NCBI GenBank assembly: GCA_035709005.1
Contig: DASTFB010000047.1
Location: 1-64,000 of the forward strand
Origin: Candidatus Methylomirabilota bacterium
GTDB taxonomy: Bacteria; Methylomirabilota; Methylomirabilia; Rokubacteriales; CSP1-6
Direction: 5' to 3'
Length of the DNA: 64,000 nt
The position numbers were made by a program, and so were the translations under genes. A model generated the notes under the pieces. That model did no database searches. It saw only the letters and a program-made list of their open reading frames with translations, and was not told the origin of the DNA. This document shows positions 38,832 through 50,357 of the stretch, in pieces; position 1 is the stretch's first letter; each line of letters opens with the position of its first letter.

Positions 38832-38990
38832 GTCCCGACTCAGATCGGGCGACAGATCAAGCGCCGCGGGGGATTGCGTCGGGGCATGGGCGTGGCGACA
38901 GCCCGGGTGCCCATGCCCTCTTCAAGCCGCCCGTGCCCTGTTCAATCAGCCCGGGTGCCCATGCCCTGTTCAAGCAGCCCATGCCCTGTC
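38832..38990 (+). repeat. Palindrome-ended 75-bp-period repeat, locus R1 (plus orientation)
   Basis: One body unit from 38832 ends in a hairpin with perfect 10-bp arms (GGGCATGGGC 38882-38891, GCCCATGCCC 38909-38918) and the tail TCTTCAA. Three further short tail copies of GCCC[AG]TGCCCTG follow to 38990. The final copy supplies the stop codon of oppF. Together with R2 it brackets oppF-oppD in inverted orientation. No ORF of its own is credible. Confidence 0.85.
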
Positions 38991-40972: not shown

Positions 40973-41265
40973 TTAACAGGGCACGGGCACCCGGGCTATC
41001 GCCACGCCCGTGCCCCGCCGGGACCACCCGCGGTGGTCGTCCGGCCACCCGATCTGAGTCGCGACTACCGGTGTCGCCACGCCCATGCCCCTCCGCGATC
41101 GCCCGTAGCGGTTCATCGGCCGCCCGACCTGAGTCGCGACCACCGGCATCGCCACGCCCGTGCCCCGCCAGGACCACCCGCGGCGGTCGTCCGGCCACCC
41201 GATCTGAGTCGCGACCACCAGTATCGGTTTCGCCACGCCGTGCCCGGCCGGGACCGCCAGCGGCG
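40973..41265 (-). repeat. Tandem 75-bp repeat array with terminal palindrome, locus R2 (minus orientation)
   Basis: Read on the minus strand: a partial unit (about 41265-41216), two full 75-bp units (41215-41141, 41140-41066) and a terminal 93-bp unit (41065-40973). The last ends in a hairpin with 10-bp arms at 40979-40988 and 41006-41015. Unit starts are GTCGCGACTCAG. The 309-bp gap between oppD and the threonine aldolase is almost entirely this array. The ribosome site of oppD follows immediately. Confidence 0.9.
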
Positions 41266-45552: not shown

Positions 45553-46341
45553 ATGCCGATCGACGCTCGTCACCCCCGCGAAATCCGGGCCGACATCAGG
45601 GCGGGCGCGCTGACCGGCGTGACCGCTGGTCTCGGTCCCGGTTACGTGCAGGCCAACCTCGCCGTGCTGCCCCGGGAGCACGCCTACGACTTTCTGCTGT
45701 TCTGTCAGCGCAACCCGCGGCCGTGCCCGCTCCTGGAAGTCACCGACGTGGGTTCCCCCGAGCCGGCGGGCGTCGCTCCGGGCGCCGACCTCCGCACCGA
45801 CCTCTCCCGCTACCGGATCTACAAGGACGGCGTGCTGGCCGACGAGGTGACCGATGTCCGCGCCTTCTGGCGCGACGACCTCGTGGCCTTCCTGCTCGGC
45901 TGCTCGTTCACGTTCGAGTGGGCCTTGATGGAGGCGGGCATCCCCCTGTGGCACGTCGAGCACGGGCGCAATGTCGCCATGTGGCGCACCTCGATCGCCT
46001 GCCGCAGCGCCGGCCGCTTCCACGGGCCCATGGTCGTCTCCATGCGGCCCGTCGCCGCCGAGCACCTGGCCAAGGCCGTCACCGCCAGCGCCCGGTTCCC
46101 CGGCGCGCACGGCGCCCCCGTGCACATTGGAAATCCCGACGCCATCGGCATTCGCGACATCACCCGCCCCGACTGGGGTGATGCGCAGGAGTTTCGCGCC
46201 GGCGACGTTCCCGTGTTCTGGGCGTGCGGCGTCACACCGCAGGCGGTAGCGCTGGCTTCCCGGCCCCCGTTGATGATCACCCACAGCCCCGGCCACATGT
46301 TCATCACCGACGTGTCCAACTCCGCGCTGGCCGTCCTCTGA
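45553..46341 (+). CDS. D-glutamate cyclase-like protein (DUF1445, putative hydro-lyase)
   Basis: A 262-residue member of the DUF1445/UPF0317 family; a mammalian homologue converts D-glutamate to 5-oxo-D-proline. Family stretches: GALTGVTAGLGPGYVQANLA, FLLGCSFTFEWALMEAGIPL, FHGPMVVSMRP, HIGNPDAIGIRDITRPDWGD and ITHSPGHMFITDVSN. The downstream genes are 5-oxoprolinase subunits, which fits a shared pathway. TAGAAT at 45541-45546 sits 6 bp before the ATG, another nearly leaderless arrangement. GGAGGAG lies 12 bp upstream. Confidence 0.85.
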   Translation: MPIDARHPREIRADIRAGALTGVTAGLGPGYVQANLAVLPREHAYDFLLFCQRNPRPCPLLEVTDVGSPEPAGVAPGADLRTDLSRYRIYKDGVLADEVTDVRAFWRDDLVAFLLGCSFTFEWALMEAGIPLWHVEHGRNVAMWRTSIACRSAGRFHGPMVVSMRPVAAEHLAKAVTASARFPGAHGAPVHIGNPDAIGIRDITRPDWGDAQEFRAGDVPVFWACGVTPQAVALASRPPLMITHSPGHMFITDVSNSALAVL

Positions 46342-46363: not shown

Positions 46364-46530
46364 ATCGCGACTCCGATCGGGTGCCCGACACACCGCCGCG
46401 GGCGATCGCGGCGGGCCCCGGGCGTGGCGAAGGCGGTGGTCGCGGCTCAGATCGGGCGGGAGAATGGCCGCCGCGGGCGATCGCGGCGGGGCACGGGCGT
46501 GGCGAAGCCCGGGTGCCCGTGCCCGGTTCA
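46364..46530 (+). repeat. Palindrome-ended 75-bp-period repeat, locus R3 (plus orientation)
   Basis: One full 75-bp unit (46364-46438) and one terminal unit (46439-46530). The terminal hairpin has perfect 10-bp arms, GGGCACGGGC at 46489-46498 and GCCCGTGCCC at 46515-46524. The repeat ends exactly one base before the pxpB ATG at 46531. It fills most of the 189-bp gap after the D-glutamate cyclase-like gene. The frame reads through in phase with pxpB. Confidence 0.9.
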
Positions 46531-48216
46531 ATGATCTTCAATCCCTGCGGCGACCTGGCCGTTTCCGTGGAGCTCGACGAGCAGATCAGCGTCGAGGTCA
46601 ACACGCGCGTGCGGGCGCTGGAGTTCCTCATCCAGCAAAAGGGGCTGCCGGGCGTGGTCGAGATGGTCCCGAGCTTCCGGGCCCTGCTCGTCTACTACGA
46701 CCCGCTGGCCGTCGACTACGACGCGCTCTGCGCGGCCATCGCCGAGCTGGAGCCTCAGGCCGAGGCTGCCGTACTGCCGCCGGCGCGCACGGTGGAGCTG
46801 CCGTGCTGCTATGATCCCGAGCTCGGCCTCGATCTGTCCGCAGCCGCCCAGCGCATCGGGACCTCCGTCGACGACCTGATAGCCCTGCATGCCGGGGCCT
46901 CGTACCTCGTGTACTTCATCGGCTTCACCCCCGGACTGCCGTACATGGGTGGACTGCCCGAGCGGCTGCGGATCCCCCGCCTGGAGACCCCGCGCACGAA
47001 GGTGCCGGCGGGAAGCGTGGGGATCGGCGGTGGCCAGTGTTGCATCTATTCGGTCGACAGCCCGGGCGGGTACTGGATCCTCGGTCGTACGCCGCGCACG
47101 CTCTACGACCCCGGGGCCGACGAGCCGACGCTGCTGCGGCCCGGCGACCGCGTGCGTTTCCGGCCGATCTCCCGCGCCGAGTTCGCCGAGCTCGAGCAGA
47201 GCCGGGACTCTGATCGGGTGAGAGATCGGAAGCCGAGCGCGATTCCGGCGGGGCACGGGGGTGGCGACAGCCCGGGTGCCCATGCCCTGATAAAAATTCT
47301 GGATCCGGGGCCGCAGACGACGGTGCAGGATCTGGGCCGCCGCGGATACCTGCGGTTCGGCATCCCGCCGGCGGGCCCGGTCGATCCCGCCGCCTTCATT
47401 CTCGCCAACCGTCTGGTGGGCAACGCCGACGGCGCGGCTGGGCTCGAATGTACCGTCGTCGGCCCTCGCTTCGTGGCCGAGAACGCCTGCGCCATCGCCG
47501 TCACCGGCGCGACGCTGCCGGTCACGGTCAACGGCCAGGACGCTCCCATGTGGACGACGCTCCCGCTCGTGCCGGGCGACGTGGTGAAGCTGGGGGCGGC
47601 CCGGACCGGGGTCCGCGGCTACATCGCCTTCTCCGGCGGGATCGACGTGCCGGAGGTGCTGGGCGCGCGGGCCACGTACTTGCGAGGGCGCCTGGGCGGG
47701 CTCGGGGGGCGCGTGCTGCGGCGGGACGACGAGCTCGCGCTCGCTCCGGCGCCCGCGCCGGTCGTGCGTCGGGTGTCGGCGTCCGCATGGCCGCGCCTGG
47801 ACACGGAGCCCGAGATCCGTGTCGTGCCCGGGCCCCAGCAGGACCGCTTCACCGCCGAGGGGCTCGCCGCGCTCCTGGGCGGGCCCTACGAGATGCTGCC
47901 GCAGTCCGATCGCATGGGCGCTCGGCTGCGCGGCCCTCGCATCGCGCACAGCCGCGGGCACGATATCATCTCGGACGGCATCGCGCTCGGCAGCATCCAG
48001 GTGCCCGGCGACGGCCAGCCCATCGTGCTCCTCGTCGACCGCCAGTCGACCGGCGGCTATACGAAGGTGGCCACGGTGTGCTCTTTCGACATCGGGCGCC
48101 TGGGACAGGTAAAACCTGGCCAGCGGCTGCGCTTCCGGGCCATCCCCCTGGCCGAGGCGCATCGGGCGCTCGTGACGTGGCTGGCTAGACTGGACGGTGC
48201 GCTCGACGCTGCCTGA
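46531..48216 (+). CDS. pxpBC: Fused 5-oxoprolinase subunits B and C (PxpB-PxpC / KipI-KipA)
   Basis: A 561-residue fusion. Residues 1-225 are PxpB/KipI: MIFNPCGDLAVSVELDEQIS, YLVYFIGFTPGLPYMGGLPE, VPAGSVGIGGGQCCIYS and SPGGYWILGRTP. Residues about 253-560 are PxpC/KipA: LDPGPQTTVQDLGRRGYLRF, GIPPAGPVDPAAFILANRLV, GYIAFSGGIDVPEVLGARAT, ARLRGPRIAHSRG-like sequence and VLLVDRQSTGGYTKVATV. With PxpA the complex hydrolyses 5-oxoproline to glutamate using ATP. The linker at 224-252 is encoded by repeat R4. If not translated as a fusion, pxpC would need CTG 47287. Confidence 0.85.
   Translation: MIFNPCGDLAVSVELDEQISVEVNTRVRALEFLIQQKGLPGVVEMVPSFRALLVYYDPLAVDYDALCAAIAELEPQAEAAVLPPARTVELPCCYDPELGLDLSAAAQRIGTSVDDLIALHAGASYLVYFIGFTPGLPYMGGLPERLRIPRLETPRTKVPAGSVGIGGGQCCIYSVDSPGGYWILGRTPRTLYDPGADEPTLLRPGDRVRFRPISRAEFAELEQSRDSDRVRDRKPSAIPAGHGGGDSPGAHALIKILDPGPQTTVQDLGRRGYLRFGIPPAGPVDPAAFILANRLVGNADGAAGLECTVVGPRFVAENACAIAVTGATLPVTVNGQDAPMWTTLPLVPGDVVKLGAARTGVRGYIAFSGGIDVPEVLGARATYLRGRLGGLGGRVLRRDDELALAPAPAPVVRRVSASAWPRLDTEPEIRVVPGPQQDRFTAEGLAALLGGPYEMLPQSDRMGARLRGPRIAHSRGHDIISDGIALGSIQVPGDGQPIVLLVDRQSTGGYTKVATVCSFDIGRLGQVKPGQRLRFRAIPLAEAHRALVTWLARLDGALDAA
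47201..47293 (+). repeat. Palindrome-ended repeat, locus R4, forming the pxpB-pxpC linker
   Basis: A single terminal-type unit (GCCGGGACTC start, arms GGGCACGGGG 47251-47260 and GCCCATGCCC 47278-47287). It lies wholly inside the open frame and encodes SRDSDRVRDRKPS, then AGHGGGDSPGAHALIK. The same frame of R1 reads DSDRATDQAPRG, then [15 protein letters not shown], showing common descent. It replaces the expected stop of pxpB and start of pxpC. Confidence 0.85.
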
Positions 48217-49562: not shown

Positions 49563-50357
49563 ATGCCGACGCAGAAATTCATCGACCTCAACTGTGACAT
49601 GGGCGAAAGCTACGGGCGCTGGACGCTCGGAGCGGACGCCGAGATCATGCCCTTCATCACCTCAGCCAACGTCGCCTGCGGTTTCCACGGGGGCGACCCC
49701 CACGTGATGCGCAAGACCGTGGAGCTGGCCCTCCGGCATGGGGTAGCCGTCGGCTCGCACCCGTCTCTGCCCGACCTCATGGGCTTCGGGCGGCGGGTGA
49801 TGGATGTCACGCCGCAGGAGCTGAAGGATTACCTCCACTACCAGTCGGGCGCGCTGCGCGAGTTCCTGCGCGCCGCCGGCTCCGAGCTGCAGCACGTCAA
49901 GCCGCACGGCATCCTGTACACGATGATGGAGCGGCAGGAGTTCGAGGCGCTGGGCCGGGCCTGCGGTGAGGCGGTGCAGGAGTCGCGCGATCCGAAGCTC
50001 ATTCTCATGACCCTGGCGGCAGGCAAGTGCGACCAGGCCTGCCGGAAGATGGGCGTGCGGGTGGCGTCGGAGGGTTTCGCCGACCGCGCCTACAACGTGG
50101 ATCTCACCCTGGTGTCCCGCAGGCTGTCGGGTTCGCTGATCACCGATCCCCAGAAGGCGGCGGCCCAGGCCGTACGGATGGCGATGGAGGGCAAGGTCCG
50201 GACCATCGACGGCGTGGACGTGGACATCTCCGTGCAGACGATCTGCTGTCACGGCGACACGCCGGGCGCCGACCGAATCGTGCGGGCGGTGAGGGAGGCG
50301 CTGGACCGGGCCGGCTGCCAGGTCAAGCCCCTGCGGGACTGGCTCCCGGCGGCTTGA
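49563..50357 (+). CDS. pxpA: 5-oxoprolinase subunit A (LamB/YcsF family)
   Basis: A 264-residue LamB/YcsF protein, the PxpA subunit that works with PxpBC to convert 5-oxoproline to L-glutamate in the cytoplasm. IDLNCDMGESYGRWTLGADA and IMPFITSANVACGFHGGDPH are the family signature, followed by VAVGSHPSLPDLMGFGRR, HVKPHGILYTMM, ASEGFADRAYNVD and ICCHGDTPGA. The start is 9 bp after the aminotransferase stop. It closes the 5-oxoproline cluster. Confidence 0.9.
   Translation: MPTQKFIDLNCDMGESYGRWTLGADAEIMPFITSANVACGFHGGDPHVMRKTVELALRHGVAVGSHPSLPDLMGFGRRVMDVTPQELKDYLHYQSGALREFLRAAGSELQHVKPHGILYTMMERQEFEALGRACGEAVQESRDPKLILMTLAAGKCDQACRKMGVRVASEGFADRAYNVDLTLVSRRLSGSLITDPQKAAAQAVRMAMEGKVRTIDGVDVDISVQTICCHGDTPGADRIVRAVREALDRAGCQVKPLRDWLPAA

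Follow-up and report, generated by a model that had tools for sequence, protein, structure and literature searches.

The window analysed here, a stretch of 64,000 nucleotides, comes from a 4.6-Mb Rokubacterial MAG of a soil bacterium (G000; 134 contigs, 3.6% estimated contamination) and carries pxpB and pxpC as a single open reading frame (Table 1). This frame is free of stop codons from the ATG at 46531 to the stop at 48214-48216 and encodes 561 aa, in which the matches cover positions 3-202 of 202 in PF02682 for the CT_C_D domain and positions 1-260 of 261 in PF02626 for the CT_A_B domain; with both carboxyltransferase domains present at full length within one ORF, the locus qualifies as a PxpB-PxpC fusion. 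The gene for the third subunit, pxpA, lies in the same cluster, which identifies the system as a PxpABC 5-oxoprolinase, and an aminotransferase gene accompanies it besides the D-glutamate cyclase gene. The ORF is probably read as one polypeptide in the cell, as judged from its uninterrupted frame.

Table 1. Genes and repeat copies at and around the fused pxpB-pxpC locus (positions are those of the window).
Feature	Position	Strand	Evidence or remark
R1, family-A copy, intergenic	38837..38922	+	partial second copy to 38989
Three tandem family-A copies	40973..41226	-	75-nt spacing
D-glutamate cyclase family gene, upstream neighbour	45553..46341	+	PF07286 1.6e-65
R2-R3, two family-A copies, first partial	46369..46530	+	upstream of pxpB
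PxpB half (KipI-like, CT_C_D)	46531..47200	+	PF02682 3e-70; TIGR00370
R4, family-A dispersed repeat, in frame	47201..47289	+	encodes linker SRDSDRVRDRKPSAIPAGHGGGDSPGAHAL
Terminal hairpin of R4	47251..47287	+	arms 47251-47260 and 47278-47287; 8/10 pairs kept
PxpC half (KipA-like, CT_A_B)	47287..48216	+	PF02626 5e-94; TIGR00724/PxpC
pxpA (LamB/YcsF family), third 5-oxoprolinase subunit, downstream	49563..50357	+	PF03746 2.3e-94

The two halves are joined by R4, a copy of a dispersed repeat whose match spans about 47199/47206 to 47289 and which is 83% identical over 83 nt to R1 (38837-38919). A chance likeness between R4 and R1 is ruled out by 47 further matches to R4 in the genome, with E values down to 3.6e-22. 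In the linker frame, R4 reads DSDRVRDRKPSAIPAGHGGGDSPGAHALI, and an example of the linker peptide that it codes is KPSAIPAGHGGGDSPGAHALIK. The preliminary description of this DNA had placed such a repeat inside the open frame, as the coding sequence of the linker between the KipI and KipA domains; the open frame and the identity of the repeat are both established, its coordinates (47201-47293) are off by no more than a few bases, and R1 translated in the same frame does give a similar peptide. It had further stated that the normal stop and start were gone, which holds on comparison with related pxpB/pxpC junctions: the native C-terminal tail of PxpB (~16 aa) and the stop codon have given way to R4, which has also taken over the first base of the start codon of pxpC, so that a CTG (47287-47289) now takes the place of the ancestral GTG, relatives showing a start of the GTGATC or GTGATA type. 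The statement that a repeat insertion had fused the two genes therefore stands as far as the repeat linker at the junction is concerned, but the PxpB tail was replaced and the event was not a clean insertion. An exact 7-nt deletion (TGTTCAA) at the 3' end of R4 was considered and then given up, as joining within the shared TG accounts for the sequence equally well.

In an AlphaFold2 model of the fusion (pLDDT 90.8), both halves are well folded, linker residues 234-247 are disordered and are the sole part below 50, and repeat-coded residues seem to prolong the C-terminal PxpB helix (215-232). The best match in the PDB is TTHA0988 (3oep, 3opf and 3ore; E 4e-64 by sequence and 7e-51 by fold), a natural fusion that bears out the earlier remark that PxpB-PxpC fusions are already known. 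TTHA0988 is like the window protein in domain order and fold, whereas its linker is different and shorter, with no repeat origin on record, and the two proteins share ~33% identity. In a Bacillota MAG (L063), PxpB and PxpC are likewise fused, through an Ala/Gly-rich linker.

The repeat family to which R4 belongs, family A, is ~86 nt long and consists of GACTCTGATCGGG, a variable stretch and then GATTCCGGCGGGGCACGGGCGTGGCGA(C)AGCCCGGGTGCCCGTGCCCTGTTCA. The 4.6-Mb genome has about 49 matches to it; this and the other match counts given below are rough, as the search scored a limited number of candidates. Family A was found in about half of 60 relatives, all of the same family. Its 3' half forms a hairpin in which the outer stem has 10 of 10 pairs in 40 of 50 copies, and three columns of the stem show paired changes (CAC/GTG, CAT/ATG, TGC/GCA and CGC/GCG); family A is thus a dispersed repeat with a conserved hairpin, as is characteristic of Rickettsia palindromic elements (RPE), which are known as in-frame coding repeats (PMC2229807, PMC3733652). 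The partial loss of pairing in R4 is weak as proof of coding constraint, since nine other copies also have imperfect stems. The linker frame (DSDR...) is open in 34 of 39 family-A copies, compared with ~23 expected from shuffles (p = 4e-4), and the other two sense frames are open in 17 and 16 of the 39. When R4 itself is shuffled, the linker frame is open 55% of the time, and an open linker therefore requires no selection. The dispersal of family A suggests that it is, or has been, mobile, and the tandem trio in the window suggests local tandem amplification. No PF01797 (Y1/RAYT-type transposase) gene was found in G000, in a search whose positive controls worked, and a RAYT/IS200-driven REP was rejected on this ground; nor does family A carry the tag of a GTAG REP or REPtron, as its upstream consensus is ~CGGTGGTCGC and GTAG occurs in some copies only.

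A second family-A copy within a protein-coding gene lies inside DnaE2 (L159:1442-1566; G000:C70:30461-30585, - strand), in the same frame as R4. The host is an intein-bearing error-prone DNA polymerase whose loop at this site is short in most relatives, and within the loop of the G000 copy another repeat is nested; DnaE2 of G005 (L206) carries a family-A copy and a nested element at the same loop. Family A therefore occurs in frame in more than one conserved protein (PxpBC and DnaE2 in G000, DnaE2 in G005), with a consistent frame, which is again RPE-like behaviour. Two further genomes, G012 (L205) and G031 (L238), share an insert of ~170 nt in the DnaE2 loop that is 98% identical; its identification as a dispersed repeat is not supported, as the G012 insert gave self matches and weak short ones only.

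The species of the window is represented by a single MAG, and comparisons were made with relatives outside its genus, among Candidatus Rokubacteria and Methylomirabilota. We compared 49 distinct pxpB/pxpC junctions, for which identity to each of the two halves is at least 55%. At 41 of these the gap is no longer than 70 nt; none of them is fused, and in 35 the stop and start codons overlap close to the boundary (NTGA type). The overlap at unfused junctions is mostly GTGA or ATGA, and PxpB in relatives typically ends in ...ARTYRPVIA*, with ...AARVEARTYRPVIA* retained. At the other eight junctions the insert exceeds 70 nt, and fusion is seen in three (3/8 versus 0/41, Fisher p = 0.003). The alignment of related loci, which the preliminary description had proposed as a check, thus establishes from sequence that the unfused stop/start overlap is the ancestral state and places fusion only at insert-bearing junctions. 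In all three family-level fusions the native start codon of pxpC has been lost (CTG in G000, CTG in G012 and ACA in G026), and the fused junctions join the repeat straight to the N-terminus of PxpC, with no remnant of an older linker. At two junctions (L032 in G006, and L086), inserts of 0.8-1.4 kb part pxpB from pxpC; they seem to contain other ORFs and to open with a hairpin of the CCCTCTCCC...GGGAGAGGG type, which follows a lengthened PxpB tail.

Each of the other fusions uses a dispersed repeat different from family A. The linker in G012 derives from family B, TCGGAGGGGGCCTCGACGGCCCCCTCCGA...GCGCGGGCGAAGCCCGCGC (at least 72 matches in G012 and 69 in G031), and that in G026 from family C (9 matches in G026, 13 in G005 and 14 in G000). 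A fourth fusion was found in the distant G053, from another family of the class, and its linker represents a fourth repeat family, GAGCCGAGAGCC, with 44 matches. Three unfused junctions with a repeat in place appear intermediate-like: in G030, family B lies between two GTGATC motifs and lengthens PxpB; in G029, the junction holds a tandem of family D (48 matches); and in G054, the repeat of G053 sits at the junction in another frame, with a TTG start still present. Because the same repeat gives a fusion in G053 and a frame offset in G054, some 'fusions' may be frame accidents.

In a tree of 44 rows, the fused G012 and the unfused G031 are sisters on short branches (support 100/100), and G031 keeps both the ancestral PxpB tail and the GTGA overlap. 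G026 is the sister of this pair (94/89), and the placement of G000 is not resolved in the tree. A tree constrained to unite the three fusions is worse by 80 log-likelihood units (p-AU 9.3e-10), and a single ancestral fusion for the three family members is accordingly rejected (AU p = 9e-10). A clade of G000 and G026 is weakly and marginally rejected (p = 0.042), and the different repeats speak for separate origins of these two fusions as well. Both the parallel occurrence and the absence of a single origin are thus established, and the relatives, on the sequence evidence, reached the same PxpB-PxpC fusion independently with different repeats. Four MAGs titled Betaproteobacteria or Burkholderiales (L068, L078, L080 and L087) have pxpB/pxpC nested in the Rokubacterial tree, which reflects either horizontal transfer or mislabelled or contaminated bins.

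We propose that a family-A hairpin repeat came to sit at the pxpB/pxpC junction of a Rokubacterium, where it would have taken the place of the pxpB end with its stop codon and of the initial base of the pxpC start. Having few stops in the relevant frame, the repeat would have happened to put both genes in register, and the two subunits would then have been made as a single polypeptide with a flexible, repeat-coded linker of ~30 residues. Since the overlapping ancestral genes are in different frames, they could not be fused by point mutation without an indel, and repeats settling at the ends of genes could provide one at overlapping junctions. The fusion may be tolerated because PxpB and PxpC act as a complex anyway. 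For each short insert, fusion has a chance of ~1/3 (frame) x ~0.55 (stop-free), so that about one fusion would be expected from six short inserts; three were observed, and selection for fusion is therefore not required. The effect of the fusion is probably roughly neutral. We consider it highly probable that the repeat replaced the gene boundary in this manner and now codes the linker of a fused PxpB-PxpC, and the arrival of the repeat is likely to have caused the fusion in the window lineage. The order of events, with the repeat arriving before or together with fusion, is supported in outline by these comparisons, best for G012 versus G031.

An unlikely alternative is that the open ORF yields two proteins, pxpC starting internally at CTG 47287 or at an in-frame GTG that R4 carries, and PxpB being altered at its C-terminus or only rarely read through. 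This would agree with the frequent chance openness of GC-rich repeats, seen above for shuffled R4, and with G054, where the repeat sends pxpB into another frame, so that pxpC must start by itself and a TTG is available. However, a start codon replaced in all of G000, G012 and G026 is to be expected only where it has become dispensable because pxpC is no longer initiated separately, and without a stop between the halves the ribosomes on pxpB must enter pxpC. Slightly less probable still is that an ordinary indel had already fused the genes in an ancestor and that repeats landed later in a tolerant linker. The linker region is evidently permissive, the pair G012/G031 has G026 as its sister, with G000 nearby but not firmly placed, and the clade of G000 and G026 is rejected only weakly; against this order, no related junction is fused without a repeat (none of the 41 short ones), each fused junction passes from repeat to pxpC N-terminus with no older linker, and the ancestral tail and overlap in G031 mean that the G012 fusion was not inherited from a shared fused ancestor. 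An assembly artefact, in which a multi-copy repeat was collapsed or joined two places in a MAG of 134 contigs with some estimated contamination, is very improbable, as the repeat, at ~90 bp, is short enough to fit within a typical short read, the two flanking sequences belong to a single operon that keeps its ancestral order and has pxpA further downstream, the reading frame passes exactly across the join and independent MAGs reach the same outcome with other repeats.

Family A resembles RPE in that both are small dispersed hairpins, mostly intergenic, with some copies in frame within conserved proteins; unlike RPE, it joins two whole genes as an interdomain linker and its host belongs to a GC-rich soil phylum, and the likeness drawn here is one of behaviour. 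REPs within DnaE2 have been reported in other bacteria (PMC3733652). Intragenic GTAG/CGTC REPs are likewise intergenic hairpins near ORF ends, mostly between co-directional genes and sometimes coding, with DnaE2 as a reported target (PMC3733652), which family A shares, whereas family A is ~86 nt long, lacks a clear tag of either the GTAG or the CGTC kind, abuts the downstream gene start and resides in a genome without PF01797. Fusions of bacterial MITEs with ORFs have been described for ERIC, YPAL and RU-3, in which, as here, repeat reading frames are joined to host ORFs (PMC2229807); those fusions are mostly terminal extensions or involve hypothetical proteins, whereas the present repeat forms a linker between two intact enzyme subunits. 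No description of a repeat-made linker welding two intact genes was found in the open-licence literature. PxpB-PxpC fusions and in-frame palindromic repeats are thus known, and a repeat-made gene fusion, arising several times in parallel, appears to be new.

This locus shows a simple route from non-coding repeat DNA to a new protein architecture. Fusions of adjacent genes in bacteria are usually met once the traces have gone; here the mutation is still legible, with the ancestral state in dozens of relatives, intermediate-like states in G030, G029 and G054, and four fusions that each have their own repeat. We tentatively suggest, as a possibility somewhat short of even, that several mutually unrelated families of short hairpin repeats, sitting at the ends of operon genes in Rokubacteria and Methylomirabilota related to them, recurrently create fusions and interdomain linkers, by breaking overlapping stop/start junctions and welding the genes when in register, and that pxpB/pxpC is one of many hot spots. 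Whether small repeats are a main source of linkers and frame changes for fusion in GC-rich bacteria is a testable question.

Between co-directional genes, 39 of the sampled family-A copies lie in sense and 9 in reverse orientation (p = 1.5e-5), the remainder being 3 between convergent genes and 2 within genes; the gene calls behind these counts are codon-usage scores and not curated annotation. Many copies stop right at the downstream start codon (...CCCTGTTCAATG), including R3, which ends in ...CCCGGTTCA immediately 5' of the ATG of pxpB. Repeats at the starts or ends of genes possibly act on translation coupling or on the mRNA. The sense arrangement in which the repeat abuts a start codon (...CCCTGTTCA-ATG) is very frequent, occurring at window:46444-46531, L118, L123, L129, L138, L151, L153 and other loci. 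A few family-C copies likewise end at a start codon, and family B is often found just 3' of stop codons.
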